From: Candidatus Gastranaerophilales bacterium
GTDB taxonomy: Bacteria; Cyanobacteriota; Vampirovibrionia; Gastranaerophilales; Gastranaerophilaceae
Assembly: GCA_944323155.1 (NCBI GenBank)
Contig: CALURL010000015.1
Coordinates: 1 to 40,734, forward strand
Length of the DNA: 40,734 nt
Direction: 5' to 3'
Shown here: one piece after another, positions 1,138-30,995 of the stretch
How positions within the stretch are numbered: the first letter of the stretch is position 1
Layout: each line of letters opens with the position of its first letter
The notes under the pieces: model-generated
Seen by the model: only the letters and a program-made list of their open reading frames with translations
Database searches by the model: none
Told to the model about the DNA's origin: nothing
Program-made: the position numbers and the translations under genes

Positions 1138-2847
1138 TTATGCGCTGTAGCGTTTAAAACCTTTTTCAATATTTTTGGATATTAAATTCTTTACAGTATC
1201 ATATTCAGTTGTTAGAGTGCTAATTTCGGTATCAAGATTTTTCATTTTCAAATCTAGTTTTTGTTCTTTCATGTTTAGTTTTTCTTTTTTAGCTTTGTAA
1301 TCAGCTTCGGCTTTAGCAATTTCTGACTCGTCAGAAACCTCTTTTACATAAGAATATGTCTGGTAATTTCTCTGGTAATAAAAACCGTCGTCGCTCATGT
1401 TGGTTATATACATCATGCCGTTTTCAATCATATCCTGTAAATATTTTGGGTCATGAACTTCGTTATTCTCTGCCCAGCCGGAAGTTGCTATCTGGTTTAA
1501 CAAAGAATCATAGAATTCTATCATTCTACTTGCATATTCATTACCTTCGGTTATTGTTTCACCAGGGAAATCAAAGATTACATTATCACCGATTAATTCT
1601 GATGTACTAAAGCCTCGTTTTAAAGTATATGATTCATTTTTTGTATCATCAGTGGAATAACCATTATATGCATCTAAAAAGTAGGTCAAAAATGCACGTG
1701 CAATATTATTCAAATTTACACCGCAGGCACTATTAAATTTTTTACCAATTTTACCACCTTTAGTGTACCTGTTATACGCAATACCAACAATGTCACCGGC
1801 TTTATCTAAAATATTATTTTTTACTTCACCAACAGAAGGTTTCTTCTTAACAAAACCAGTCGCTGTTGCGACAGTATCAATACCGTTACCAAAACCTTCG
1901 TCGTGATGTACACGACTTGGTTCAACATCACTTACACTAAAATGGAATAATTCCATCGTTCTATATCTAGCCTCATTTAATGCCAATGTAGACTTTGGAT
2001 ACCCATTAGTAAGAACTGTTGCAAAAGCATCATATAACTGATCTATAAATCCGCCTGTTGCCGTTAAATCTGTTGCCAAACCCAAGACCCACTGAATTGG
2101 CCACTGATTATTATCATTAGTAATTGCTACAAAATTAATTTGATCATTTGGATCATTAGATAGAAGTTCGCTCAACTTTATATCTTCAAAAGTTGCAGAA
2201 CCTCCTTGTATATCAATATCTGAAGCTGTTGTTGTTTGTAAATTTCCTGAACTATCTTTACCAGTTACTACTGTAATATCCCCGCCTAAATTCATTCCTA
2301 TAGAAACAGCTGCAAGTCTATCTCTCAATTCTTCCATATCACCTTGTTCTACTGTTATTATATTCTCCGGAGAGGAATCTCCTAAACCTAAGGTATTATA
2401 ATATGGAGAATCTGCATAGGAACTTGCTTCGGACGCAGTGATAAGACCGGCATTAGCCAGACCTTGATAAAATTGAGTACGTACCAAACTTGATGAGGTA
2501 CATCCCAAACCTTCCTGTGGAATTCCGGCTTCTCGAGCGGCACTTGCGTAGCGGCTATCCAAAATGACACGGTTTAAGCTATTGGTCATGGTGATTGGAC
2601 GAAAATCGTTTAATGCAGATGGGGTCATAAAAGTATTATAATTTAACTGTTCCATGCCGCTGCCTGTGCCATAATAATCGTACATTAATTTTGTCTGGTT
2701 CAAACTTGCTTGATACTGGTTAGACAAAATGGCTAAGTCACGGGATATTGACAACTTTTCATGAGAAAGCTGCATTGACTGAAATTCACAATCGGACTTG
2801 CGTGATGTGATGGTTAATAAGCGTGCCTGTGATGCGGATAAGCCCAT
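1138..2847 (-). CDS. Family-A protein 1: conserved-termini protein, unknown, flagellin-like architecture
   Basis: 569 residues with no signal peptide or membrane segment. It is a close paralogue of the protein at 23849-25555 over its whole length. Shared blocks include the N-terminus MGLxAxQARLLTITxRKSDCE, then LNQTKLMYD, FIDQLY, GKxxNSACGVNLNNIARAFLTYFLDAY and SLLNQIATSGWAENN-like stretches. The last 65 residues form a heptad-rich coil ending with LDLKMKNLDTE and FKRYSA. The 369-aa protein at 29886 shares only the first 20 and last 35 or so residues. Helical ends around a variable centre are typical of flagellins and other axial or secreted filament proteins, but I see no direct flagellin similarity. 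The start is supported by AAAGGGG about 11 nt upstream. It lies downstream of the lytic transglycosylase on the same strand but has its own sigma-28-like promoter and a pentanucleotide repeat upstream. Function unknown. Confidence 0.85.
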   Translation of the reverse strand: MGLSASQARLLTITSRKSDCEFQSMQLSHEKLSISRDLAILSNQYQASLNQTKLMYDYYGTGSGMEQLNYNTFMTPSALNDFRPITMTNSLNRVILDSRYASAAREAGIPQEGLGCTSSSLVRTQFYQGLANAGLITASEASSYADSPYYNTLGLGDSSPENIITVEQGDMEELRDRLAAVSIGMNLGGDITVVTGKDSSGNLQTTTASDIDIQGGSATFEDIKLSELLSNDPNDQINFVAITNDNNQWPIQWVLGLATDLTATGGFIDQLYDAFATVLTNGYPKSTLALNEARYRTMELFHFSVSDVEPSRVHHDEGFGNGIDTVATATGFVKKKPSVGEVKNNILDKAGDIVGIAYNRYTKGGKIGKKFNSACGVNLNNIARAFLTYFLDAYNGYSTDDTKNESYTLKRGFSTSELIGDNVIFDFPGETITEGNEYASRMIEFYDSLLNQIATSGWAENNEVHDPKYLQDMIENGMMYITNMSDDGFYYQRNYQTYSYVKEVSDESEIAKAEADYKAKKEKLNMKEQKLDLKMKNLDTEISTLTTEYDTVKNLISKNIEKGFKRYSA

Positions 2848-7366: not shown

Positions 7367-8752
7367 TTAAAATATTTTATAAGGATTCAAAATATTATTC
7401 GGGTCAAAAGTTTTCTTAATTTGGCGCATATAATCTATCGCAACAGAATTAATAACTTTGTTAATATGATCACGCTTCATAAGCCCGATACCGTGTTCAC
7501 CGGAAAGAATTCCTCCAAGACGCGCTGTCAAATCATAGATTTCACTTTTTGCGAGTTTATAATTTTTATATTCAGCTTCATCGTTATAATCAATAGGGAT
7601 TTGCGGATGAACACTGCCGTCTCCGACATGGCCGACAAGGCATGGAGTTAGATTATATTTTTTACAAATATTTCTAATACCTTCGACAAGTTCTGCAAGA
7701 TTTTCACGCGGAACTATTACATCGTCTGTTGTTACATTAGGCTTTAGTTTCGCACAAGCACCCATGGATGAACGTCTGGCTGTCCAAATTTTATTGTATT
7801 CATCATCGTTATGAGAACTTTGAATTGCTGAGGCATTTGACATTTGTAAAATCTCTAATATAACCTTTTCCTGATAATCCATTGAAACTTTAAAACCGTC
7901 AACTTCTATCAGTAATGCAGCGTCTTTATCAGTTAAAAGCCCTGCAGGATAAAATTTTTCAACAGTTTGAATAGCATTCTTATCCATAAAATCAATCGTT
8001 GCTGGGAAAATTTTTCTGTCAATTATCGAATTAACAGCATTTACAGCTTCTTTTACAGTATCAAAATATGCCATAAAAACTTTTTTAGCTTCAGGTTTCG
8101 GGATAAGTTTTAATGTAGCTTCAACAACAATTCCCAAAGTACCTTCAGAGCCGACAAACAGACTGCCAAGGTTATAACCTGTTGCATTTTTAATCGTATT
8201 AGCGCCTGTTCTTAAAAGTTCACCGTTTGCCATAACAACAAGCATATCAATTACATAATCTTTGGTAGAACCATACTTAAATGTTTTAGCACCGCCTGAT
8301 GATTGAGCAATACTTCCGCCGATTGTAGAAACCGCAAGGTTAGATGGATCTGGCGGGTAAAACAATCCTATTTCATCAACTTGTTTTTGCAAATCTCCGA
8401 CAATCACACCGGGTTGAACACGGGCTGTCATATTTACGGAATTAATTTCAAGAATTTTGTTCATTCTCGAAAAATTCAAAATTATTCCGCCATGCTCTAC
8501 AACACATGCCCCGACAACATTAGTTCCTGCTCCGCGGCAAATAACAGGAATTTTATACCGGTTTGCAAGTTTCACAACATTTTGAACCTGTTCAATGCTA
8601 TCAACAAATACAACTGCATCCGGCAAATTTTTTATCTGCGGAATATTTGTTGCATCCTGCGCATATACGTAACACTCTTCTAATGTCGTTAAAACATTTT
8701 CTGCGGGGAGTGTCTTTTTCAAGTCTGATATTAATTTATTCTTCATCAACAT
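7367..8752 (-). CDS. glcD: GlcD-like FAD-binding 2-hydroxyacid (D-lactate/glycolate) dehydrogenase
   Basis: 461 residues, standard length. The N-terminal FAD-binding PCMH domain has CRGAGTNVVGA, PPDPSNL, GGSIAQSSGG and SEGTLGIV. The C-terminal FAD-linked oxidase domain ends with HVGDGSVHPQ, SGEHGIGLMKR and FDPNNILNP, all typical of GlcD/LldD2-type enzymes oxidising D-lactate or glycolate to the 2-oxoacid. No GlcE or GlcF partner is present, so the electron acceptor is not evident; an electron-transfer flavoprotein pairing is possible in anaerobes. The ATG at 8752 overlaps the end of the giant coiled-coil gene by 17 nt. A second in-frame ATG at 8746 is equally possible. The overlap implies translational coupling, an odd pairing of a metabolic enzyme with a structural protein. 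Confidence 0.9.
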   Translation of the reverse strand: MLMKNKLISDLKKTLPAENVLTTLEECYVYAQDATNIPQIKNLPDAVVFVDSIEQVQNVVKLANRYKIPVICRGAGTNVVGACVVEHGGIILNFSRMNKILEINSVNMTARVQPGVIVGDLQKQVDEIGLFYPPDPSNLAVSTIGGSIAQSSGGAKTFKYGSTKDYVIDMLVVMANGELLRTGANTIKNATGYNLGSLFVGSEGTLGIVVEATLKLIPKPEAKKVFMAYFDTVKEAVNAVNSIIDRKIFPATIDFMDKNAIQTVEKFYPAGLLTDKDAALLIEVDGFKVSMDYQEKVILEILQMSNASAIQSSHNDDEYNKIWTARRSSMGACAKLKPNVTTDDVIVPRENLAELVEGIRNICKKYNLTPCLVGHVGDGSVHPQIPIDYNDEAEYKNYKLAKSEIYDLTARLGGILSGEHGIGLMKRDHINKVINSVAIDYMRQIKKTFDPNNILNPYKIF

Positions 8753-11700
8753 ATGATGCCAGCTTTTCTATATTTGCACTTAGTTTGGATAACTGTTTTT
8801 CAATTTTATCCACTTTATTATTTAACACCATATCATCTTTTTCTTCAAGTGTCGATAGAATTTTTTCTATTTTTCTTTCTAACCTATCAATTCTTGATTC
8901 TTGATTTTCAAATCTTTCCTCAAGTTCTTCTAAAATTTCAGACTTGTCCGGAACAGAAACCTTTAATTCCTGAATCATATTTTTAACATCTTTTACTTCT
9001 GATGTTTTTTCAGCAATAGAAGCCATATTTTCACTTGCGGAGTCAACCCATTCGCCAAGATACATTAGAACCTGATGGAAAACCTTATCTGCATTTACAG
9101 AAGAAGCAACCATTGATTTTATGGCATCTATTTTCTTTTCAAAGCGTTCATTTATCTCAGCATAGTCAATATAACTTATTTTCTCTTCGAGATTTGATAC
9201 AACATTACTGAATTTATCAAGTCCGCTGCTCAGGGCTTTGTAAGATTCATCTGAGGTGAGAAGCAGTTTATTTGTTCTTGAGCTTATGCTTATAATATCA
9301 TCATTAAGTTTTTCAATATCTTCTTTCAAATCAAACATTTGATCAGGAGTTAAAGAAGATTGAATATTCTCTACTGATAACGCAATTTTATTAATATTTC
9401 TTGAAAGATCATTTATATCATCTTTTGATGTTGAATTTGAAATATCATTCAAAGCTATACGAAGTTTTGCAATATCAGATTCAACATCCTGGAGAGTATA
9501 TGAATAACCGAAATCATCACTATTTGCGATTTGTTTGAGCTGGTCACGAACTTCTTGAAGATGCTGGCTTATTTCGTCTGTTTTTTCTTCTACAAAATCT
9601 TTAATTTCTTCAGTTTCTTCGACAAAAGACACCTGTTCAAATACAGAAATTATTGCAGCCATAATAGATTCTTTTATGTCCTGCGTATTTTTGTCTAAAT
9701 CAACATCATTTAATCCATTCTCAATATTCTGAATTTTACCAAGTAAGTCTTCTAAACATGAACTTATTGCCTCTGTTCGCTCGTTTAATTCTGAATTTTC
9801 AAAATACTTACGCTGCTCTAAAATAAGGCTTTTAATATCTTCAATTTCTGTTTCAGCATCAAAATCTTCAGAATCATTAAATAAAGCTAATGTATCTACC
9901 TTTTGATGCAATGCCATCAAGGTTTCTGCTATCCTGTCTTCTGTATCATCGGCAGCAACAAGCGTATCCACTTTCTGATGCAGGCCTAACAAGGATTCTG
10001 CGATTTTATCCTCAGTGTCATCAGGTTCGATAAGTGTATCTACTTTTTGGTGAAGCCCGATTAATGATTCTGCAATTTTGTCCTCAGTTAACACTACATC
10101 ATCGATTTTGTCATTCAAATCAATAATTGATGTATCAGAAGCCATTACATCTATTTTATTGTTTAAAGTTTCAAAAGCCTCAGCATAATCATTATCATTA
10201 TTTTCGTCAATAGATGTTACAAGAAGATCCATCTTTTGATGAAGTGCCTTCAATGAGTCATTAGAATCTTTTATTAAATCAGAATCTAATGCAATATTAG
10301 TATTTATATCTACTACAGTTTCAAGAACTTTTTTAGTTTCATCCTGAATATATTCTTTTAAAGTATTCTGTACAGCAGCCAAACCTTCTTTAAAATTTTC
10401 ATGGCTGCTGTCATCATTCGCAATTTCAACCAACAAGTTGTTAAACTTTTCTGATAAATCGCGTTTTAATATATCTACTGCCTGTTGAAGCTCTTCACTA
10501 TTAACAGACTCAGAAAGACAAGATTTTAAATCATCGATATAACCAGTTAATTTTTCATCAATAGTATTACTTATGTCATTCTGCAACAAAGATAATGAAT
10601 CTGAATAAGAGGTATTTATTGCAACAAGCTTATCCTTAATCTGGTTAATACCTTCCTGCCACTGTTCTATAAAGCTGTTTGTTTTTTCAATATTTAGACT
10701 TACATTTTTGTTTACATTTTCAACAGCAAGCCCTAACAATTCAAGATTTTCCTGAGTCTGTTCCTTTAGACAATCTTCGATGTCTGATAATTTAATTAAG
10801 GTTTCTTTATAAACCTGTTCCAATTTAGCAATCGCTTCTTGATTATCAACAAAACCATTTGTCAAATCAGAACTTATATTCATATAAGAAAAGTCAAGCT
10901 GTTCTTTTATATTAGTAATAGTGTCGCAAAAGTCCAATGAGGCAAATTTTTCTATCTCTGCCTGCAAAGGGATAAAACGATTAATTAAATCTTCTGCACG
11001 GTTATTAAAGATATCAATAATATCTGTATTAACAAGATTTAACTCTTGCTTTAAAAGATTAATTTTTTCTTCGAAATTGTTTAGAATTTCTTGCTTTGAA
11101 TTGTCACTATCAGTTTTTAAAACATCTGCCAGGGATAGAAGGTTTTCAAATTTTTCATCAACCGATGCCAAATAATCTTTTAAGTTGTCATCAACACTTG
11201 AATTATTTTTAACAGAGGAACTCAATTCAGAAATTGTATCAGAAACAGATTTTATTCCTGCTTCAAGTAACGACATCATTTGCACAAGTCTGCCATCGCT
11301 GGTGTCAAAATTAGATTTTAATGTATCAGCCAAAGATGTCAATTCAAGTTTTACTGCAGAAATTTCGGCAATAGAATTATCGATTTTTACATCTGTGTCA
11401 GAAGATATAGTTTCGACAGATTTTATATACTCGCCTAATTTTGTCTGCAAAATATCTAATTTTTCATCATAGTCGCTTAAACTGCTAGAGAACGAATTTT
11501 CCAGGTTTAACAATTTTTCAGAAAATGCCTTTTCATTATAATCTTCGTTTGATTTTGCAGAAATAGTCAATTCTTCAACATAATGTCTTAAATCTTCCAT
11601 TAGATTTTCAATATGTTGTTTCTGACTGTCTGCCATTTTCGAAAAAGCTGATTCAATATCTTTTAAATCAGTAGAAATCATTTCAAGTTTTTCAGCTTGA

Positions 11701-14186
11701 TATTGGTTAGATTGTCGATAAAAATCAGAATTTTTTGTCTGAACATCATTCAATTCATTTGAAAGATTTGCAAACATATCTTTCAAATCAGAAAAACTAT
11801 TTGCAACTTCAAGTGCAAGATTATCTTGTATATTATCTATTTTTAAAGAAGCTGTTTCTAATGTATCAGAAAGTTTTGTAACATTTGCCTCTTCTGTCTG
11901 CAGAAATTCTGTTCTTAAATCTGAAATCTGTTTTGTTACGTCTTTAATTTCGGATATAACAGAATCTGAATCAATAGTAGAAATATTTTTTAGACTTAAC
12001 TCAAAATTTTCAAACTTTGCAGATAATTCTGCAATAGAGTCTTCCAAACAATTTGAATCATCATCAGATTTGTCATCAAAACCGTTAATGAGGTTTATTG
12101 TTTTTTCATAAATTTCTTGGAAAGCATCTGAAATCTTTAATAAATTGGCATTACTATTTTGAATAAGTTCAGCCTTAACATCATCAAAAGTTGATATTAC
12201 ATTGTCAATATCGTTTTTAATATCAAATAACGCATTTTTATTTTTTACATCAAGACCGTCAAAACGTTCATTAAAACGTTCTGATAACATCATCAACTCA
12301 TTTGAAAGATTTTCATAATTCATTTTAGAATTATTTTCAAAACTATTCTTTATGTCATCTATACTCAAGGATATATTTTTAAGGTCATCTGAATAATTAA
12401 TCGAATCTAATTTTTCTAAAATCTCTCCAATTCTTAATTTATTAGCATCGGAGTTTAAATTAAGCACAGAAGAATTATCAAGAATTTTTTCAATGAATTC
12501 AGAGAAGCTGCTCTTGAATTCAGAAAAATCTTCTTTAGTAATAATATTAGAGAAATCCTTTTCAAATTTATTCAATTGTTCTAACAAATGTGAATCATTA
12601 TTTCCAGAGACGCTCTGAAGAATTTCCTGTAATTCTTTGATGTTTGCAGCAAAATCATCAAATTTATTTGTCAACTGAACGAAATCATCTTTTACAGGCA
12701 GCTGAGAAATATTAACAGCAATTTCCTGAGCTCTTGCGTTAATTTCTTCAAATTTTGCCTGAATATTTTCTAAATCTTCTTTATTTGCCAGATTTGTAAT
12801 AATATCTGCAATCTCGTCATTTTTTTGATCAGAAATTTTTAATGCTGATAAAACCGCATTTGCGCTAATATAGATATTTTCAAGCTCTCGTTTTATAATA
12901 TCGTTCTGCTCAGTAACATCCATTGTCATAAGGTTTTTCAAAATATTCTGAAGATTGACATTAACATCAATCAAAGATGCTTCAAACCCATGATTTAAGT
13001 CATACAGAAGATTTAGTTTTTCTTCCAATTTGGTGCTGTTTTGAGAGTTTGAATCATATAAAGAATCACCAACTTCTGTTACAAAAGCCTTGATTGCAGC
13101 GACTTTATCTTCTATAACAGCTTTATATTCTATATTTACAGAATTTAATGTTTCATGCAGTTTTACAATATTGTCATTAACATTCTTTAATTCAGCATAA
13201 TTATGTTCGCTGTTGCTGCTAACAAGAGATGAAAGTTCATCTTTTTTATTCGCAAGTTCTACGGAAATATTAGTTATTAAATCTTCGATATTGTTTAAAT
13301 TTTCTTTAGTTTCATTGGCTGCGTTTTCAACGGCTTCATTAATATCGAAAGAAACAACATCTAATTTTTCAGATATAGCATCAGCCGCAGAAAGCAGCTT
13401 AGGAGTATTTTCAGTATTTTTAAGCAAATCATCAAGCTTTGATGAAACACTTTCAAAATCTCCGTTATAATCAATAGCTTTTATTTCTGAGAGAATATTT
13501 TCTAATTGAGTAGAATTATTTGAGATTTCAGAATTCAAAAATGAAGCATTATCAGTAATTGTTTGGATTAAATCAGCAAGCCCTTTTCTAAAGTCTGCAA
13601 AATCTGTTTCAGTAACAACAGAAGATAATTCATTTTGGAGTTTTTCAAATTGTTCTGCGCTAAATGCATTGGTTTCTTCTGAAACTCCCATGACTGCAAA
13701 CTTTAATTCATCAAGCAATGCAGAATATTTTTCTACTTTTTCAGACAAAACATCTAATCCGTTAATAATATTATTTTGTCCTTCTTTATCATTTTGAATA
13801 GCTTCAAGTTTTTCATTAACTTCTTTAATCAAATCAGCATTCAAAGATATTTCCAGAGAAAAAGAATTAACCTGATCGTTTAAAACTTGAAATAATTCCT
13901 GAATTTGAGATGTTTTAGCATTCTGTTCCTGCAACTTTGAAACATTTTCAATAGATGTTTCAATGCCATCAAACAATGAAACTGTTTGTTTATGTTTATC
14001 TTCAACAGCTCTTTTGAGTTCAGAAACATAAATTTTGATAGAATCATAGGCTTCAGTATCTTCCGCCATCATATCTAATTTATTATTAATAATAGTTAAT
14101 GCCTTATCAAACCCCTCTGCATTATTCTCATTTTCAAGCTTCAAATTGTTCAAAATTTCAGCGAGTTCTTCAACTGTTTGCGCCAT
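8736..14186 (-). CDS. Giant (1816-aa) cytoplasmic coiled-coil protein, unknown function
   Basis: 1816 residues, strongly acidic, rich in Leu, Asn, Asp, Glu, Lys and Ser, almost free of Cys, Trp, Pro and Gly. No signal peptide or membrane segment is seen. Nearly the whole chain repeats heptad patterns of the type 'I..KLD.L.......' and reads as a succession of coiled-coil segments. A 24-residue unit (TEDKIAESLxGLHQKVDTL plus a linker) occurs three times in tandem at DNA 9873-10088. The C-terminus (SRIDRLERKIEKILSTLEEK) is a canonical coil. AAGGAAAG lies about 10 nt before the ATG. It is the first gene of an operon with glcD and an HExxH protein and is divergent from korD. Length and composition suggest a filament, scaffold or spacing protein. 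I do not recognise a named family; SMC-like is unlikely because there is no ATPase head. Confidence 0.85.
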   Translation of the reverse strand: MAQTVEELAEILNNLKLENENNAEGFDKALTIINNKLDMMAEDTEAYDSIKIYVSELKRAVEDKHKQTVSLFDGIETSIENVSKLQEQNAKTSQIQELFQVLNDQVNSFSLEISLNADLIKEVNEKLEAIQNDKEGQNNIINGLDVLSEKVEKYSALLDELKFAVMGVSEETNAFSAEQFEKLQNELSSVVTETDFADFRKGLADLIQTITDNASFLNSEISNNSTQLENILSEIKAIDYNGDFESVSSKLDDLLKNTENTPKLLSAADAISEKLDVVSFDINEAVENAANETKENLNNIEDLITNISVELANKKDELSSLVSSNSEHNYAELKNVNDNIVKLHETLNSVNIEYKAVIEDKVAAIKAFVTEVGDSLYDSNSQNSTKLEEKLNLLYDLNHGFEASLIDVNVNLQNILKNLMTMDVTEQNDIIKRELENIYISANAVLSALKISDQKNDEIADIITNLANKEDLENIQAKFEEINARAQEIAVNISQLPVKDDFVQLTNKFDDFAANIKELQEILQSVSGNNDSHLLEQLNKFEKDFSNIITKEDFSEFKSSFSEFIEKILDNSSVLNLNSDANKLRIGEILEKLDSINYSDDLKNISLSIDDIKNSFENNSKMNYENLSNELMMLSERFNERFDGLDVKNKNALFDIKNDIDNVISTFDDVKAELIQNSNANLLKISDAFQEIYEKTINLINGFDDKSDDDSNCLEDSIAELSAKFENFELSLKNISTIDSDSVISEIKDVTKQISDLRTEFLQTEEANVTKLSDTLETASLKIDNIQDNLALEVANSFSDLKDMFANLSNELNDVQTKNSDFYRQSNQYQAEKLEMISTDLKDIESAFSKMADSQKQHIENLMEDLRHYVEELTISAKSNEDYNEKAFSEKLLNLENSFSSSLSDYDEKLDILQTKLGEYIKSVETISSDTDVKIDNSIAEISAVKLELTSLADTLKSNFDTSDGRLVQMMSLLEAGIKSVSDTISELSSSVKNNSSVDDNLKDYLASVDEKFENLLSLADVLKTDSDNSKQEILNNFEEKINLLKQELNLVNTDIIDIFNNRAEDLINRFIPLQAEIEKFASLDFCDTITNIKEQLDFSYMNISSDLTNGFVDNQEAIAKLEQVYKETLIKLSDIEDCLKEQTQENLELLGLAVENVNKNVSLNIEKTNSFIEQWQEGINQIKDKLVAINTSYSDSLSLLQNDISNTIDEKLTGYIDDLKSCLSESVNSEELQQAVDILKRDLSEKFNNLLVEIANDDSSHENFKEGLAAVQNTLKEYIQDETKKVLETVVDINTNIALDSDLIKDSNDSLKALHQKMDLLVTSIDENNDNDYAEAFETLNNKIDVMASDTSIIDLNDKIDDVVLTEDKIAESLIGLHQKVDTLIEPDDTEDKIAESLLGLHQKVDTLVAADDTEDRIAETLMALHQKVDTLALFNDSEDFDAETEIEDIKSLILEQRKYFENSELNERTEAISSCLEDLLGKIQNIENGLNDVDLDKNTQDIKESIMAAIISVFEQVSFVEETEEIKDFVEEKTDEISQHLQEVRDQLKQIANSDDFGYSYTLQDVESDIAKLRIALNDISNSTSKDDINDLSRNINKIALSVENIQSSLTPDQMFDLKEDIEKLNDDIISISSRTNKLLLTSDESYKALSSGLDKFSNVVSNLEEKISYIDYAEINERFEKKIDAIKSMVASSVNADKVFHQVLMYLGEWVDSASENMASIAEKTSEVKDVKNMIQELKVSVPDKSEILEELEERFENQESRIDRLERKIEKILSTLEEKDDMVLNNKVDKIEKQLSKLSANIEKLASYVDEE
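9873..10088 (-). repeat. Three tandem 72-bp coding repeats in the coiled-coil gene
   Basis: On the minus strand three consecutive 24-codon units begin at 10088, 10016 and 9944. They encode TEDKIAESLIGLHQKVDTLI, TEDKIAESLLGLHQKVDTLV and TEDRIAETLMALHQKVDTLA, each followed by about four linker residues. Synonymous and conservative changes show the duplication is not brand new. A looser related unit (LKALHQKMDLL) lies just upstream in the protein. Confidence 0.9.
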
Positions 14187-23848: not shown

Positions 23849-25555
23849 ATGGGATTAGCAGCACAACAAGCTAGATTATTGACAATTACAGCCAGAAAAT
23901 CTGACTGTGAATATCAATCTATGAAGCTTTCTCACCAAAAGCTTGCTATTTCCCGTGAATTGGAAGACGTTTCTAATGAATACCAAAACTCTTTAAACCA
24001 GACTAAATTAATGTACGATTTTTATGGTAATGGTCAGGGAGAACAGTTGAATTATGCAACCTTAATGACACCTTCTGCTTTGAATGATTATATGCCGATT
24101 ACAATAACAAATTCAGCCGGCAGAGTAATATTAAACAGTCAATACGCAGCTGCAGCACGTGCTGCAGGTATTCCTATGGAAGGATTAGGATGTGCACCTT
24201 CAACACTTGTAAGACAACAATTCTATAATGGTTTGGCTTCAGCAGGCTTGATAACTCAATCAGATGCAGATTATTATGCTTCTACTGTTTATAATCAGGC
24301 TCTTGGTCTTGGTGCAACAACTTCTGAAGGCATTATCACAGTTGAATCAGGTGATATGACTGACTTAAAAGCAAAATTAACAGGCGTAACATTAAGTATG
24401 AATCAAGAAATGACTGTTGTTACAGGCCAAAATGCTGACGGAACTTATCAGACAACAACCAGCACATATACTGATATAACAAATTCTACAATGGATAGTA
24501 TATCATTGAGCCAGTTGTTATCTACCGATCCGAATGATCAGGTTAACTATGTAGCAGTAACAAATGATGACAACAATTATCCGACTAAATGGGTATTAGG
24601 TTTAGCACTGGATATGACATCCACAGGCGGCTTTATTGACCAGTTATATAATGCATTTGCATCAGTTTTAACAACCGGTTATGAAAAATCAACTATTGCA
24701 TTAAATTATGCAAAACAAAAGACAACTGAGCTTTTCGAATTCAGTTACGGCGGAGACCATGGAAACGGTCAGACTTCTGTTAAAAATGGAGGAGATCAAG
24801 AAAATCCTGACGGTATAGATAACATAGCAACAAACACCGGATATAGACCTAAAAAAGGTAAAGAAGGTGAAATGAAACAGAATATACTTGACAATACAGG
24901 TAATATTGTTGGTATTTCATTCAACTCTTACTGGAAAGGCGGCAAAAAAGGTAAAGATTATAACAGTGCCTGCGGTGTAAACTTAAACAATATTGCAAGA
25001 GCATTTTTAACATATTTCCTTGACGCATATGAAGATGGTCTTGATACAGACGATAATAAAAATGACTCAAGCGAGCTCAAAAGAGGTTATACAACATCCG
25101 AACTTATAACAGACGATGTTACATTCGACTTTGCAGGAGAAACAATTACCTCAGAAACTGCAGGAAGACACATTCAATTCTATGATACATTGTTAAATCA
25201 AATAGCAACTTCCGGCTGGGCTGAAAATAACCAGGTAACAGATCCTGCTTATCTTCAACAAATGCTGCAAAACGGTATGATGTATATTACCAAAATAAAA
25301 GATGATGGATATTATTATCAGGGTAATTACGCAACAGACTCTTATGTTAAAGAAGTTACTGATGAAACAGCAATTGCTCAGGCAGAAGCAAAATATAACA
25401 CCCTAAAAACGAAATTAAACAGTAAAGAAAATACTCTAGATTTGAAAATGAAAAACCTTGATACTGAAATTTCATCACTAACGACAGAATATGATACAAT
25501 AAAGAATACAATATCGAAAAACATAGAAAGGTCATTCAAACGATACAGCGCATAA
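23849..25555 (+). CDS. Family-A protein 2: conserved-termini protein, unknown, flagellin-like architecture
   Basis: 568 residues, no signal peptide or membrane segment. It is the full-length paralogue of the protein at 1138-2847, differing mainly in a hydrophilic insert around residues 310-330 (GGDHGNGQTSVKNGGDQEN). The N-terminal helix is MGLAAQQARLLTITARKSDC. Conserved middle segments include MTPSALNDYMPITITNS, STGGFIDQLYNAFASVLTTG and NSACGVNLNNIARAF. The C-terminal coil is LDLKMKNLDTEISSLTTEYD and the end SFKRYSA. AAAGGAAAG lies 13 nt before the ATG. The protein is rich in Asn, Thr, Asp, Gly and Tyr, as extracellular proteins often are, despite lacking a Sec signal. That suggests export by a non-Sec route, or an intracellular role if not exported. 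It has its own promoter and terminator, so it is monocistronic. No database family is known to me. Confidence 0.85.
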   Translation: MGLAAQQARLLTITARKSDCEYQSMKLSHQKLAISRELEDVSNEYQNSLNQTKLMYDFYGNGQGEQLNYATLMTPSALNDYMPITITNSAGRVILNSQYAAAARAAGIPMEGLGCAPSTLVRQQFYNGLASAGLITQSDADYYASTVYNQALGLGATTSEGIITVESGDMTDLKAKLTGVTLSMNQEMTVVTGQNADGTYQTTTSTYTDITNSTMDSISLSQLLSTDPNDQVNYVAVTNDDNNYPTKWVLGLALDMTSTGGFIDQLYNAFASVLTTGYEKSTIALNYAKQKTTELFEFSYGGDHGNGQTSVKNGGDQENPDGIDNIATNTGYRPKKGKEGEMKQNILDNTGNIVGISFNSYWKGGKKGKDYNSACGVNLNNIARAFLTYFLDAYEDGLDTDDNKNDSSELKRGYTTSELITDDVTFDFAGETITSETAGRHIQFYDTLLNQIATSGWAENNQVTDPAYLQQMLQNGMMYITKIKDDGYYYQGNYATDSYVKEVTDETAIAQAEAKYNTLKTKLNSKENTLDLKMKNLDTEISSLTTEYDTIKNTISKNIERSFKRYSA

Positions 25556-25556
25556 T

Positions 25557-25589
25557 AAAAAGACAACTTATATAAAAGTTGTCTTTTTT
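25557..25589. terminator. Bidirectional terminator after family-A gene 2
   Basis: AAAAAGACAACTT (25557-25569) pairs with AAGTTGTCTTTTTT (25576-25589) around a short AT loop. It lies between convergent genes. Confidence 0.9.
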
Positions 25590-25598
25590 ATTATTATA

Positions 25599-26423
25599 TT
25601 AAACGCTTGAGACAGGTGGTAAGTCAATACTCTTTAATCTCTGTTCAATTCTTCTATACCACTTTAAATGTTGTTTGAACAAAATATTATATTTAGAAAT
25701 ATCACCATGTGAAATTTCATATTCCTGATTATCGCAAACCTCCTGCAATGCTTGTTCCAAACGGTGCGTAAGCTGTTTTCTATCAAGCTTTTCATCTTTT
25801 GAAAGTTCAATTCTTTTTCCAAATTCAATAATTACTTCCGGTCTATTATCACGGAAAAAGCAATAATCAAATGCCACAGGAATCAAATTAATTTTTCCAT
25901 ATCTTTTAACCGCATTTTGAGCAATATATGCAAGCCCTGTCTGGAATTCAATAGGTCTGTAATGCGGCGGCCTAATAATTCCCTGCGGGAAAATACAAAG
26001 CATATTACGTAAATCACTCATTACATCTACAGAATATTGCAAAGCCTTCATCGCAGACTGTGGAGACTTTTTATTAACAGAATAAGCCCCGCCGCGCCTT
26101 AATAATGGGAAACGATTTAACTCTTCCACCATTAAACGAATTTCTTTATGGAAAATTCTGTGGGTAATATTATAAAAAACAATACCATCCCACCAATTAC
26201 TATGCGGCGCAAAAAGAATTGTCGGAATATTTGTGTCCCCGTCAAAATAGTTTTCAGCACCTTTGTATCTAAAAGCATAAAAACGATTTTGCAGCATGTT
26301 AAAGAAAAACATACTTGCTACCCAAAGCCAAAATTTACTTGTCTTAGCTGGTTTAAATTTCTCCTCTTTATTCCTCAACTTGGTTGGGGGGATGTCAGAA
26401 TATAATTGTTCATCTACTGTCAT
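25599..26423 (-). CDS. PlsC-like lysophospholipid/glycerolipid acyltransferase
   Basis: 274 residues. The acyltransferase block I is HSNWWD (His74, Asp79: the HX4D catalytic pair) in the context APHSNWWDG. Block III is FPQGIIRPP (145-153), where the usual Glu of FPEG is Gln. A hydrophobic segment at about 31-45 (FWLWVASMFFFNML) is a membrane or interface helix. The family transfers acyl groups from acyl-ACP or acyl-CoA to lysophosphatidate or related acceptors at the inner membrane. The Glu-to-Gln change and poor match elsewhere leave the acceptor open; some cyanobacterial relatives act on glycolipids or carotenoids. It is single-gene, convergent with family-A gene 2. Confidence 0.82.
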   Translation of the reverse strand: MTVDEQLYSDIPPTKLRNKEEKFKPAKTSKFWLWVASMFFFNMLQNRFYAFRYKGAENYFDGDTNIPTILFAPHSNWWDGIVFYNITHRIFHKEIRLMVEELNRFPLLRRGGAYSVNKKSPQSAMKALQYSVDVMSDLRNMLCIFPQGIIRPPHYRPIEFQTGLAYIAQNAVKRYGKINLIPVAFDYCFFRDNRPEVIIEFGKRIELSKDEKLDRKQLTHRLEQALQEVCDNQEYEISHGDISKYNILFKQHLKWYRRIEQRLKSIDLPPVSSV

Positions 26424-26580
26424 ATATCAATTGTACTTCACTAATATTAAATACGCAAATAAACAATACAATATTTTTAAAAAAACTTAACTATACAAAT
26501 TACTCATATAGCAAAAAATATTTTTTTCAGATTTAATATAAGACATAACAAAAAATTAAAAATAAAGGAGATACAACAAA

Positions 26581-26904
26581 ATGAGAATATTACCTGTTTC
26601 AAATATGAATTTTAATGGTGGAATAATTAGAATTACAGGTCCTGATAAAGGCCATATTATTGCAATAAATACCGATGAAATATCTACAATCCAGAGTTCA
26701 AAATATATAAATAGAGATACCGAGAACTTAACAAATTTAGAAACGACGCCAAATGCTATAATAACTATGAATAATAACAATCGTATTTATACATATATGC
26801 CAATTTCTAAAGTATTAGATGCATATTCAACAGCAAAAGTAAGAACACTGAGCGAGTTACATCCTGACAGAAATCCTGAAATTCATGGCCACATTCAACA
26901 TTAA
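26581..26904 (+). CDS. Small hypothetical protein
   Basis: 107 residues with AAAGGAG 9 nt before the ATG. It begins MRILPVSNMNFNGGIIRITG. The rest is a mix of short beta-prone stretches (GHIIAINTDEISTI, NAIITMNNNNRIYTYM) and a His-rich end (HPDRNPEIHGHIQH). No signal peptide, membrane segment or recognised domain. It lies just upstream of the riboswitch region on the same strand but ends before the riboswitch promoter, so it is probably a separate unit. Confidence 0.6.
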   Translation: MRILPVSNMNFNGGIIRITGPDKGHIIAINTDEISTIQSSKYINRDTENLTNLETTPNAIITMNNNNRIYTYMPISKVLDAYSTAKVRTLSELHPDRNPEIHGHIQH

Positions 26905-26921
26905 TATTTGAACATAATTGT

Positions 26922-26950
26922 TTGACATGTAACTTTGGTTATTTTACGCT
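26922..26950 (+). promoter_or_regulatory. Candidate promoter of the riboswitch operon
   Basis: TTGACA at 26922-26927 is a perfect -35. The best box at 17 bp is TACGCT (26945-26950), which is poor, so the exact -10 is uncertain. The start would fall near 26956, right at the first helix of the riboswitch. Confidence 0.45.
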
Positions 26951-26954
26951 TTTA

Positions 26955-27060
26955 ATATCAAAGAGGAAATTGGTGTGAAAATCATCAGCTGTGCCGCAAC
27001 CGTAAAAGCCGGAACACTCAGAAAAACTTAAATGCCGCGAGCATCGGCAGATAAGATATA
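26955..27060 (+). promoter_or_regulatory. Cobalamin (B12) riboswitch aptamer
   Basis: The core matches the B12-box consensus in order: GAGGAA (26963-26968), GGTG (26972-26975), GAAAATC, CAGCTGTG, CCGCAAC (26994-27000) and CGTAA (27001-27005). A closing helix can form between ATATC (26956-26960) and GATAT (27055-27059). A peripheral hairpin TGCCG/CGGCA (27033-27037 with 27045-27049) follows the core. At about 105 nt it is compact, closer to the small class-II or variant cobalamin riboswitches than to long AdoCbl ones. A downstream terminator hairpin provides the switch. Recognition is from the consensus by eye. Confidence 0.82.
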
Positions 27061-27072
27061 TTTTCTAAGTTG

Positions 27073-27106
27073 TCCTCTGATTTACAAGAATAGCAGAGGA
27101 TTTTTT
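27073..27106 (+). terminator. Riboswitch expression platform: terminator that also masks the RBS
   Basis: TCCTCTG (27073-27079) pairs with CAGAGGA (27094-27100), followed at once by six T and then the ATG at 27108. The 3' arm contains AGAGGA, the only Shine-Dalgarno for that ATG. The hairpin can therefore stop transcription and hide the RBS. A competing helix AACTTA (27025-27030) with TAAGTT (27066-27071) could alternate with the aptamer. Confidence 0.8.
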
Positions 27107-27107
27107 A

Positions 27108-27809
27108 ATGTCACTGACAGCAGTAAAAACCAACAGTTCACGAGTAGGAACATGCCCGCACGGTCTACCTCTTGGAGCATGCCCGATATGTAACGGCATG
27201 GGTGGTGGCGGAGGCATGAAAAAAGCCGATTTTTCTGCAAAACCCGGTGAAATGAGCTGGAATGAATGCGCGGCAATAGGAGCATTCTTAAAAGCACAGC
27301 AGCAAGCTAAACTTACAAGACAACAAGATGCACAAAACTTTGCCCAAAATGTTCAGGCCTTCCAAAATTCCTTGATGAATGCAAGCCAAAAACTTGCAAA
27401 CATAGGACAATTTATGCTCACAAATGCACCTGCTGTTATTGCAAAACCAGTTAATTTTGTACTCAACACTGTTCTTGGCGGAATTGTAAGAACAATTGCC
27501 AGCATGCCCGCTGCTATTACGAATGCTCTGCAAACAATTCAACAAAAAATCGCTGATATATCTGACAAATTAACAGCAATGATTGGAGAATTTAAAGCTG
27601 CAATTAACAAAAAAATATCAGAAGCGTTCTCTGACTTAAAGAAAAAAGTAAAATCAATATTCTCCATTTTTAAACCACTCGACACTGATGACGATGACAA
27701 ACAAATTGATGAAACTAAAAAAGCCTTTGAATTAAAAACATTTATACACGAATTGTATAACAAATTAACAAACGGCGAAACTAAAAAGGATTTAGAAGAA
27801 AATGAATAA
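27108..27809 (+). CDS. Riboswitch-controlled protein with CPHG/CPIC cysteine motif, unknown
   Basis: 233 residues. The N-terminus has CPHGLPLGACPIC (Cys16, His18, Cys25, Cys28), a compact metal-knuckle-like motif, followed by a run of glycines (GMGGGGG). Residues about 60-180 are helical and rich in Ala, Gln and Asn (ANIGQFMLTNAPAVIAKP), with a moderately hydrophobic stretch at about 103-145 that could lie on or in the membrane. The C-terminal third is charged with an Asp cluster (DTDDDDK). No family recognised. Its ATG follows directly on the B12 riboswitch terminator, and its end overlaps the next gene by 8 nt. Zinc or other metal binding is inferred from the Cys/His spacing only. A role in cobalamin or metal handling is suggested by the riboswitch, not shown. 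Confidence 0.8.
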   Translation: MSLTAVKTNSSRVGTCPHGLPLGACPICNGMGGGGGMKKADFSAKPGEMSWNECAAIGAFLKAQQQAKLTRQQDAQNFAQNVQAFQNSLMNASQKLANIGQFMLTNAPAVIAKPVNFVLNTVLGGIVRTIASMPAAITNALQTIQQKIADISDKLTAMIGEFKAAINKKISEAFSDLKKKVKSIFSIFKPLDTDDDDKQIDETKKAFELKTFIHELYNKLTNGETKKDLEENE

Positions 27810-29292
27810 CATATCCCAGTTCAGGGACGGCGAAACCTTAAGACAACAACGAAATATGACAACTTCCCAGAGAAGGAATAATTCAAACGTAAAAGAGGGG
27901 GTTGTGGTTAATACGTTTATAAAAGACTGTCCTGATTGCAAGGTAGATCTTCATGACACCTGCGATTCTCTGGTAATCTCGGAAAACATAAAACTTCCCA
28001 AACAACTGAAGGAAGATAAAATTACAACAGAAAAGAGTCTGTTACCACTTAGTGCGGCAGCTTTAGGCGTAACAGGAATTATTACAGCGGCAACGGCGTT
28101 TATAAGCAGAAACGCAAAAATTTCAACTAAACTTGCCGAAGAAAAATGGGTTCCGACTCTAACCCGTAATATTTCCATAAACGATGAAACTGCACAGGCT
28201 ATATTCCAAATGGTTACAAATCCAAACCATAAAACAATTAAAGCCGGAGCAGGAGTTCTTACACTCACAGCAATGGCGTTTATGGGAAAAACATTCTTTG
28301 ACGGATTTAAAGAAGTCTGGGTAAAGAAAAAAGAAGCAGATATTCAAAAAAATCTTCAAGAAAAACTAATAAATATAGAAACCCAGTCATTTGCAGGCAA
28401 AATCCAAATAACAAGAAGTATGCTTTCAGAAAAAGCTAAAGAATTTAACAGTTATTTTTCAAAAGAGAAAATCCTGCCGAATTTTGGTAAAGAACTTAAT
28501 TTCACAAGGAATTACAATACCAAAAACTCAAAAGACACTCAGAAAAGCACCGGCTTAACATATTTTCTTCTAGGCGCAGGCACAGTCGGGGCAATTCTAG
28601 GCCTGACTTACATTTCCTTGAAAAACCTTAATAAAACAAAAGGTTTCTTAAAAGAATATATTAACAATAATAAAAATAATATTAAACATATAGTTGAAAC
28701 AACAAAAGCCGACACAAAAGATATTGATAAAAATAATCTCGGCTACCTTTTCCAATCAATTGACGCGGATGAAAAATACATAAGACAAATGCTCAAAAAC
28801 CTTAGCTGGGATGAAAAAGAAAAAGAAGCATTCATAAATACAATTGTGAGAAAAATAAAAACATCAACAGTAAAAGTTAATCCCCACATAGGCGGTGACG
28901 GGACTCCAAAACCATCGTTTTCATCATTTGTAGATGATTACAGAGCATATTTCTATAACTGGATTCTTGACACTGATAACAAACAATTCCAGCAGCTTTT
29001 CTGGGGAATGACAGGTGCTGCAGGTATTTCATACGCAGGAAAACTTACAGGGGATGCCATTAAAGAAGTTCAGGTAAAAAAATTCAATGCCCAGACAGAA
29101 ATTGAATTACAGCAAAGACTTGTATCAACAGAACTTAGAAACTTCAAATCAAAAAAAGACGCCGCAATAGAACCGCTTATGCATGAATTCCATAAACAGG
29201 CAAAAAACGGCAAACCCAAAGAACAACTAAAAACAATAGCAGATAATATTTTATTTGAAATCAAAAATGGGCCGCCATTTGTGTATTCATAA
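27802..29292 (+). CDS. Membrane protein of the riboswitch operon, unknown
   Basis: 496 residues; the ATG overlaps the end of the previous gene (ATGAATAA), so translation is coupled. The N-terminal 75 residues are hydrophilic with a Cys/His cluster (CPDCKVDLHDTC, Cys43, Cys46, Cys54), echoing the CPxC motif of its neighbour. Probable membrane segments are at about 81-102, 147-167 and 251-273, with a fourth weaker one near 397-417 (FWGMTGAAGISYAG). Between them are long charged helices, for example KKKEADIQKNLQEKLINIE. No transporter signature such as an ABC, TonB or ECF motif is visible. Unknown function; co-regulation by cobalamin is expected from the operon structure. Confidence 0.8.
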   Translation: MNNISQFRDGETLRQQRNMTTSQRRNNSNVKEGVVVNTFIKDCPDCKVDLHDTCDSLVISENIKLPKQLKEDKITTEKSLLPLSAAALGVTGIITAATAFISRNAKISTKLAEEKWVPTLTRNISINDETAQAIFQMVTNPNHKTIKAGAGVLTLTAMAFMGKTFFDGFKEVWVKKKEADIQKNLQEKLINIETQSFAGKIQITRSMLSEKAKEFNSYFSKEKILPNFGKELNFTRNYNTKNSKDTQKSTGLTYFLLGAGTVGAILGLTYISLKNLNKTKGFLKEYINNNKNNIKHIVETTKADTKDIDKNNLGYLFQSIDADEKYIRQMLKNLSWDEKEKEAFINTIVRKIKTSTVKVNPHIGGDGTPKPSFSSFVDDYRAYFYNWILDTDNKQFQQLFWGMTGAAGISYAGKLTGDAIKEVQVKKFNAQTEIELQQRLVSTELRNFKSKKDAAIEPLMHEFHKQAKNGKPKEQLKTIADNILFEIKNGPPFVYS

Positions 29293-29307
29293 AATACGAG
29301 GTCAAAG

Positions 29308-29766
29308 ATGTATATCCAGCAAGTTCAAAACATTAATATAACTCCATACCGTGTTCAAATGCCGACTCCTCAAAGGAATTATTGCATTTTTGACCAGAAC
29401 CGGGTTGATTGCTTTGTAAAACAAAGAGAGAATTCTTTGCCATATCTGGCAGATATACTTGTTCATTCAAATAATGAACAACAAATTGTAGAAACTCTTT
29501 ATACTCTGAATAGAATGCTTGATAACGGAGTAAAAGGCATAGACAAAATGTATCCGGTGCTATCGCGCTTCAACAACACAACTTCTCCTAATATACAAAC
29601 ATTTTTGGCCGGAATTTACAGAAAAACGCAAGTTCCTGACGCCTTTGGGCCTCTTGTCAAAATGTTAATACAAAATTCACTGCACCCTGCACCTGCAAAT
29701 TTTGATCCTAATGAAGAAATCGGAGGAGCAATACTGGCTTACCTTTCAGACCGTTTTAGAAATTGA
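29308..29766 (+). CDS. Third protein of the riboswitch operon, helical, unknown
   Basis: 152 residues, starting 15 nt after the previous stop with GAGGTC before the ATG. The first 35 residues are Gln, Pro and Asn rich (QQVQNINITPYRVQMPTPQR). The remainder looks like alpha-helical repeat pairs: LADILVHSNNEQQIVETLYTLNRML and LAGIYRKTQVPDAFGPLVKML, similar in style to HEAT-like helices, suggesting a protein-binding adaptor. No catalytic motif. It is the last gene of the unit; a perfect inverted repeat follows 12 nt after the stop. Confidence 0.7.
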   Translation: MYIQQVQNINITPYRVQMPTPQRNYCIFDQNRVDCFVKQRENSLPYLADILVHSNNEQQIVETLYTLNRMLDNGVKGIDKMYPVLSRFNNTTSPNIQTFLAGIYRKTQVPDAFGPLVKMLIQNSLHPAPANFDPNEEIGGAILAYLSDRFRN

Positions 29767-29778
29767 ATAAACACAAGA

Positions 29779-29800
29779 CATGTTACAAAATTGTAACATG
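29779..29800. repeat. Perfect inverted repeat upstream of family-A gene 3
   Basis: CATGTTACAA (29779-29788), AA, TTGTAACATG (29791-29800). The arms are 10 bp and perfect. There is no T-run after it, so an operator is as likely as a terminator for the preceding operon. It contains the TGTAACA element found at the same distance from CGATAT before family-A gene 2. Confidence 0.8.
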
Positions 29801-29814
29801 ATTTAAAACATGTT

Positions 29815-29842
29815 TAAAGTTTTAAAGTCCATGTGTCGATAT
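29815..29842 (+). promoter_or_regulatory. Sigma-28/sigma-D-like promoter of family-A gene 3
   Basis: TAAAGTTT (29815-29822), 12-nt spacer, GTCGATAT (29835-29842). The first box is a perfect FliA -35 match; CGATAT matches the -10 core. The second box ends 43 nt before the ATG. The leader shares AAGTTACTAA with family-A gene 2. Confidence 0.65.
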
Positions 29843-29885
29843 ACAACATGTAAGTTACTAAAGTAAGAAAGGATGATCGACAGCA

Positions 29886-30995
29886 ATGGGAATGGCAGCG
29901 TCACAAGCTAGATTTTTAGGTCTGACAGCCAGAAAAACCAATGTTGAGTTCGAAGGTCAACAAGTTAACCAGCAGCGAACCACATTGTCCAACCAGTCTG
30001 CAAATTATTACAACGATTTGCTCGGTATGACTGTACCAACTCCTCCGTCTGTCGACAATTATACAAAAACCGTTTATACATTTGAGGACGGCGCTTTATC
30101 TAACACAATAACAAGTCTAATTGCCTCTCCAAACGGTGAATATACTGTAAGTTATTTAAGAAAATGGACTGATGATTTTTCAGTAGTCGCAGCCTCAACA
30201 AGTATTGTTACAGAAAATGGCGACGGTACATATAATGTTGGCGCAAACAAATTACGCGACTTAGGTGTTGCTATTCCGGATAATGCAGATAACTTTGAAC
30301 ACGATGCTACCGGAAACAGAACAAAATACATCGGTGAATATGAATATCTTCAATCAATGACACCTGAACAAATCGACAGTTTAATTAAAGAAGAACAACA
30401 ATATCTTGCTCTATTAAACGAAAAATACGGAACAACAAATAGTGATTGGCTGGTAAGATATGTTGAAGATACTACTACAGGTAAACAAGTTCCATACTTC
30501 TACAAGAAAGATGATGTAACCGGTGCAGTTTACGATGACAATGGAAATTCTAAATCTAATATCAAATGTTACACCGTTGGCAGCACTACACAAACTGAAG
30601 AAGTTAAAGCTGTTACTAACTGTAAAGTTGAAAAAGACAGTTCAGGCCGCTTTATCAATATAACTCTTCCTGAACTTGATGACGATGGTAATCCTGTTCT
30701 TGATGATAAAGGCAACATTGTTTACGGCCCGACTTATTCTTTGACAACAAGCACAGTTACTGATCAAGATGCATACAATGATGCAATGAATCAATATGAA
30801 TATGAAAAATATGAATATGATCAAGCTATCAATGAAATAAATGCAAAAATAGAAATTATACAAGCACAAGATAAAAACCTTGAATTAAGATTGAAACAAC
30901 TCGATACAGAACAAGATGCAATTCAAACAGAAATGGATGCCGTACAAAAAGTTATCGAAAAGAACACAGAATCTTCATTCAAAACATTCGGATAA
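29886..30995 (+). CDS. Family-A protein 3: short form, unknown, flagellin-like architecture
   Basis: 369 residues, no signal peptide. The N-terminus MGMAASQARFLGLTARKTNV and the C-terminal coil (LRLKQLDTEQDAIQTEMDAV, ending SFKTFG) align with both ends of the 568/569-aa proteins. The central 280 residues are unrelated to theirs. The middle is rich in Asp, Asn, Thr, Tyr and Gly with short repeats such as LDDDGNPVLDDKGNIVYGP, resembling surface or calcium-loop segments. A Tyr/Glu-rich helix (YEYEKYEYDQAINEINAK) leads into the C-terminal coil. AGAAAGGA lies about 13 nt before the ATG. It has its own promoter and terminator. Conserved ends with a swapped centre argue that the ends do a common job, such as assembly or export. 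Exact function unknown. Confidence 0.85.
   Translation: MGMAASQARFLGLTARKTNVEFEGQQVNQQRTTLSNQSANYYNDLLGMTVPTPPSVDNYTKTVYTFEDGALSNTITSLIASPNGEYTVSYLRKWTDDFSVVAASTSIVTENGDGTYNVGANKLRDLGVAIPDNADNFEHDATGNRTKYIGEYEYLQSMTPEQIDSLIKEEQQYLALLNEKYGTTNSDWLVRYVEDTTTGKQVPYFYKKDDVTGAVYDDNGNSKSNIKCYTVGSTTQTEEVKAVTNCKVEKDSSGRFINITLPELDDDGNPVLDDKGNIVYGPTYSLTTSTVTDQDAYNDAMNQYEYEKYEYDQAINEINAKIEIIQAQDKNLELRLKQLDTEQDAIQTEMDAVQKVIEKNTESSFKTFG

Follow-up and report, generated by a model that had tools for sequence, protein, structure and literature searches.

We analyzed a 40,734-nucleotide stretch of DNA from a Candidatus Gastranaerophilales bacterium (GenBank assembly GCA_944323155.1, contig CALURL010000015.1; hereafter, the window), which encodes three proteins with common terminal helices and variable centres. 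The family of these proteins, termed the QAR family after its start MGxxAxQARxL, appears to be the best candidate for the exported cargo of a second type III export system, termed system B, which is separate from the flagellum (set A) and is kept in all 39 sampled relatives of the order Gastranaerophilales. We give a slightly better than even chance to the proposal that the QAR proteins are axial or surface subunits of system B that work like flagellin; in this role they would be exported, polymerize and be displayed at the cell surface.

The genome holding the window (designated G000) was counted among the 39 genomes of the order, and wider sampling covered 194 genomes of the class and 386 of the phylum. 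Contigs of G000 are designated C1, C4, C5 and so on, and the taxonomic families of the class f1-f15. Hidden Markov models (HMMs) of the first 46 residues (N module) and the last 58 residues (C module) were built only from the long proteins of G000. Family members of about 109 amino acids (aa) that are made of the two helices only are termed minis.

Two-helix hairpins and inserted domains

A sequence-only reading of the window had described three copies of a protein with shared terminal helices around a centre that differs in the third. All three open reading frames (ORFs) exist and carry both modules (Table 1); the count itself was too low, since the C module alone matched 12 places in G000, in addition to a 108-aa two-helix mini. 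Outside the window, a whole-genome search located members on contigs C1, C4, C5, C6, C7, C9, C21 and C30. The 568-aa and 569-aa proteins of the window are 65% identical over their full length, while the 369-aa protein resembles this pair only at its ends, the matches spanning residues 1-37 (E 7e-8) and ~60 residues at the C-terminus (E 4e-8). Invariant or nearly invariant positions, in the numbering of the 568-aa protein, are M1, G2, A5, Q7, A8, R9, L11, T14, R16 and E21 at the N-terminal end and K535, D538, T539, E540, T546, E547, I555, K557, N558, E560 and F563 at the C-terminal end. Of 109 homologous ORFs with both modules, 101 have an N module that starts from residue 1, and in all 109 no more than 4 residues follow the C module. 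The proposed lack of a Sec signal agrees with the polar amphipathic helix that runs from residue 2 without a hydrophobic core, as read from the sequence with no signal-peptide predictor run. Two of the G000 family genes, on C1 and C7, encode identical 344-aa proteins (L033:10622-11656 and L037:11968-13002) and share an exact 1,050-bp repeat.

In an HMM search of the lineage, of the kind that the sequence-only reading had proposed, the C module was detected in 39/39 relatives of the order, at 3-20 copies per genome, and in 116 of the 194 genomes of the class; the mini profile matched 179 of the 386 genomes phylum-wide. Beyond the class there were only five matches, all borderline (E 5e-5 to 8e-4), which we discounted as probable chance similarity between coiled coils. 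A search of named genomes returned metagenome-assembled genomes (MAGs) of Gastranaerophilales or Melainabacteria, MAGs without a name, and a few MAGs whose labels (Heliobacteriaceae, Clostridiaceae, Brachyspira or Fusobacterium) are probably wrong. The suggestion of an undescribed family of the Gastranaerophilales lineage is thus supported, but the family is larger than envisaged (12 or more genes) and reaches other orders of the class in the form of 109-aa two-helix proteins.

All intact members read from the outgroup families f9, f14 and f15 are minis of about 109 aa, present in multiple copies. Except for a few residues at the C-terminal end, they align without gaps to the Gastranaerophilales member of 107-111 aa. 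The modules were recognized in 26 intact minis with E-values of 3e-9 to 6e-22 (N) and 1e-8 to 6e-22 (C), and the spacing between them was exactly 5 residues in 26/26, so that the mini length of 109 equals 46 + 5 + 58. The corresponding spacing in the long members is 93-584 residues. This difference shows the long proteins, at the level of sequence, to be two-helix hairpins with a varied domain inserted in the turn; the 197-aa members of family f2 are short-insert forms. We infer that the mini is the ancestral form, because it is present in all the families.

A second export system and its linkage to the family

The sequence-only reading had invoked type III-exported axial proteins but missed the exporter. 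A non-flagellar export system is present in every genome tested, and genes of the QAR family are linked to it. A class B FlhA (about 685-732 bits) was found in 39/39 relatives, and FlhB and FliP were likewise found in all 39. The canonical class A FlhA (about 866-891 bits) occurs in addition in 20 of the relatives. By PF00669 search, flagellin is present in 21 of the 39 relatives and was not found in the other 18, G000 included; FliP is single-copy in the flagellin-less genomes and generally present in two copies in the flagellated ones. In the FlhA tree, FlhA-B forms one clade (Shimodaira-Hasegawa-like approximate likelihood ratio test support of 100) apart from the flagellar FlhA-A, with a long-branch warning that affects the deeper placement of clades. 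FlhA-B and the QAR family both occur in f1, f6, f9, f14 and f15; in f10-f12, FlhA falls outside clade B and the QAR family is absent.

The system-B genes of G000 were located by family searches and in selected stretches of the genome (Table 1). The core export gate (FlhA, FlhB, FliP, FliQ and FliR) and the FliF ring are all present; FliI adjoins FlhA-B in two other genomes (G018 and G090) and was not located in G000 within the stretches examined. The three FlgE/F/G-like proteins of G000 are 232-278 aa long, and matches to PF00460 occur in three places, those listed being FlgB- or FlgC-sized. No FlgK-type junction protein or full-size hook protein was found in G000 among the PF00460 and D1 family matches. 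In the flagellated genomes G029 and G033, FlgB, FlgC and two FlgG-like proteins also belong to the system-B operon, as does a lytic transglycosylase encoded between FlgC and FliE, and flagellar set A is located elsewhere or divergently encoded.

Among the 89 genomes with listed coordinates, 36 have the mini gene and FlhA-B on one contig, and the two are 6.5-15 kb apart in 36/36. A recurrent cluster of a 417-aa-type member, orf273, orf90 and the mini persists even when it has moved away from FlhA-B, and an orf90-like gene adjoins a mini in the outgroup genome G067.

Three further observations concern FlhA and FliG relatives. Most of the relatives encode a protein of about 480-510 aa that has only the FlhA C-domain; in G000 a 491-aa protein on C4 (L029:7700-9175) combines a DUF4177-like start (weak, E 0.047) with the FlhA C-terminal domain, without the FlhA membrane part. 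In the system-B operons read, the gene that separates FliF from FliH (in G000, L028:1479-2501 on C5) encodes a 340-aa protein with only weak FliG/MgtE-like matches, a candidate divergent FliG. In G048, of the hairpin-less family f11, FlgG-like genes lie near a divergent FlhA (L218:12310-13978), a locus that suggests that the class has a third type III system of flagellar descent.

Predicted structures and competing explanations

Structures were predicted by AlphaFold2 with a family alignment for the 568-aa protein (predicted local distance difference test score, pLDDT, 78; predicted template-modelling score, pTM, 0.46) and the 369-aa protein (pLDDT 81, pTM 0.43). The termini pack together in both models, and the packing of the helices is predicted to be D1-like, an arrangement not unique to flagellins. 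In the VIA-align comparison of the 369-aa model, 17/17 rows, at Z 9.1-7.1, were flagellar axial chains (flagellin, cap-filament, hook-filament junction, HAP3, FlgG distal rod and hook), whereas unrelated coiled coils reached Z at or below 6.7; against 7sn4_W both termini were aligned, with 107 residues at 1.7 A. A flagellar filament was also the top match of the 568-aa model (Z 9.1). The layout of flagellins, hook-associated and rod proteins proposed by the sequence-only reading is therefore borne out for the predicted packing of the terminal helices, but not by any detectable sequence homology to flagellin or FliE. The family may work like flagellin, which does not imply that its members are flagellins.

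In the mechanism that we favour, system B would be a non-motility system descended from the flagellum and conserved throughout the Gastranaerophilales. An ancestral helical hairpin of ~109 aa, like a needle or rod subunit, would be exported through FlhA-B, FlhB and FliPQR and a FlgB/C/G-like rod, and in the Gastranaerophilales many paralogues would have gained a domain in its 5-residue turn. The conserved helices would then pack in the manner of flagellin D0/D1 to form an axial shaft or cap, with the variable centres displayed outside the cell. A wider proposal, to which we give somewhat less than an even chance, is that gut and environmental relatives of cyanobacteria use this second flagellum-derived nanomachine to build a non-flagellin appendage, in which a needle-like hairpin became a flagellin-like filament or display protein through the insertion of domains in its turn, re-inventing the flagellin architecture independently, and that in about half of the lineage as sampled it has outlasted the true flagellum.

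A number of results weigh against assigning a flagellin-like function to the family. Nothing scored above cut-off in Pfam or NCBIfam for the three window proteins, PF00669 and Flg_bb_rod (PF00460) included, which agrees with the earlier statement that no named family applied. Profile-profile alignment gave no homology to FliE (hhalign, E 0.46) or to flagellins of the same order (E 0.38 and 0.67). With Foldseek alone, neither model had a match at E <= 0.001; weak matches to a chemoreceptor domain and flagellar filaments were seen for the 369-aa model and nothing usable for the 568-aa model. In VIA-align, PrgA (8.7) and MukB (8.0) match the 568-aa model nearly as well as the flagellar filament does, and Z 8-9 for long paired helices may mean merely a common arrangement, the program itself warning of this where Z is below 8, a limit that rises to ~13 for long helices. 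The P0001-type proteins conserve a cysteine at position 20; cysteine is unusual in flagellar axial proteins. The linkage to FlhA-B is largely inherited synteny, and the count of 36 is therefore not one of independent events; the co-distribution of the family with system B may similarly reflect one shared ancestry. One genome (G117) has the family and no full-length FlhA match, possibly owing to an assembly gap. Finally, most long paralogues are dispersed single genes, as expected of effectors or adhesins. Among the minis themselves, the Pfam and NCBIfam search of 23 proteins gave scattered weak coiled-coil matches, with no needle, inner-rod or FliE model among the 25 most frequent families. 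When the mini profile was searched against PDB sequences, the matches were unrelated coiled coils (Csm1 at E 0.005, haemagglutinin stalks), which were rejected.

The long members could instead be secreted, non-polymerizing effectors or adhesins of system B, with the terminal helices serving as an export and chaperone-binding module and at most the mini being structural. The scatter of many single-gene paralogues with unrelated centres, their 3-20 copies per genome and the presence of just one mini per genome linked to the exporter would all suit this explanation; we consider it unlikely, as classical type III effectors need an N-terminal signal only, whereas the C-terminal 58 residues of this family rank among its most conserved parts, and insertion in the turn together with flagellin-like packing suits axial proteins better. 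A cytoplasmic or cell-envelope coiled-coil scaffold, unrelated to export and sharing only ancestry and neighbourhood with flagellar genes, would agree with the absence of a visible signal sequence and with the PrgA and MukB scores. It would leave unaccounted for the linkage of the mini to FlhA-B in all 36 testable genomes, the occurrence of the family and the FlhA-B clade in the same taxonomic families class-wide, and the flagellar axial proteins as top matches of the 369-aa model, and we regard it as improbable.

Extending the published view, which takes these genes as flagellar remnants, system B could consist of relics of a decaying flagellum and the family of leftover flagellar accessory proteins. 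This seems very improbable to us: system B coexists with a complete, phylogenetically separate flagellar FlhA/FliP set in the flagellated members, its FlhA, FliP and FlhB are retained in 39/39 relatives, and the mean number of family copies is higher in flagellin-less than in flagellated genomes (9.0 vs 6.0, not corrected for kinship). If the QAR proteins are indeed axial or surface subunits of system B, most Gastranaerophilales of the human and animal gut would display an uncharacterized type III appendage, for which each genome encodes several to twenty variable surface domains, with a bearing on host contact and immune recognition. The family would also show how a two-helix rod can give rise to a flagellin-like protein, which in the evolution of the flagellum is otherwise a merely inferred step.

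Gene neighbourhood and relation to known systems

Table 1. QAR family members of the window and system-B genes of G000 (positions are those of the window)
Feature	Position	Strand	Remarks
Family member 1	1138..2847	-	ORF, 569 aa, P0001-type; C-module match at 1144-1314
N-terminal helix module of member 1	2710..2847	-	residues 1-46
C-terminal helix module of member 1	1141..1314	-	last 58 residues
Family member 2	23849..25555	+	568 aa; AlphaFold2: helix 2-49, mixed centre, helix 506-567
N-terminal helix module of member 2	23849..23986	+	
C-terminal helix module of member 2	25379..25552	+	
Family member 3	29886..30995	+	369 aa; AlphaFold2: helix 2-46, beta-rich centre, helix 294-368
N-terminal helix module of member 3	29886..30023	+	
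C-terminal helix module of member 3	30819..30992	+	
System B on C5			FliE, FliF, FliH, FlhA
System B on C14			SpoA (FliMN_C) protein, FliP, FliQ, FliR
System B on C22			two FlgE/F/G-D1 proteins, FlgB, FlgC
System B on C20			FlhB, FliK-like protein below Pfam cut-off, third FlgE/F/G-like protein

Between the two plus-strand family genes of the window, ORFs of 233, 496 and 152 aa (26581-29766) encode possible partners or chaperones. The order family gene, PlsC-like gene, o233, o496, o152, 369-aa-type gene, IspA-like gene and LepB-like gene is kept wholly or partly in 12 other Gastranaerophilales contigs. An ORF of 1816 aa on the minus strand (8736-14186), which by its sequence looks like a giant coiled coil, has family genes in its vicinity in several genomes.

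Two papers (PMC3787301, PMC4040986) attribute the leftover flagellar genes in non-motile Melainabacteria of the gut to flagellar loss, and the passages of Di Rienzi et al. and Soo et al. on this point describe neither a second system nor the QAR family. The flagellar gene list of Di Rienzi et al. would correspond to the expected contribution of system B. No description of type III secretion in Melainabacteria was found in the open-access literature. The present analysis recasts these leftover genes as an export system in its own right, retained in all relatives sampled and equipped with a candidate cargo. Retention of flagellum-derived type III export genes in non-motile bacteria is shared with Buchnera, reported to have flagellar basal bodies without filaments (PMC8109811), and with Lysobacter, reported to have flagellar gene remnants (PMC9927559). 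Unlike in both of these cases, system B is a separate paralogous system that can also coexist with a complete flagellum, and a candidate substrate family is dedicated to it.

The minis resemble SctF, SctI and FliE in being two-helix proteins of ~109 aa with a proline-flanked turn, encoded near a type III gate, and differ from them in being multicopy in the outgroups and in carrying large inserted domains within the order. With flagellin and the hook-associated proteins (FliC, FlgL/HAP3), the QAR family shares N- and C-terminal helices that are predicted to pack together around an exposed variable centre, many paralogues and no cleaved signal seen; in contrast to these proteins, its terminal helices are shorter and do not match PF00669.

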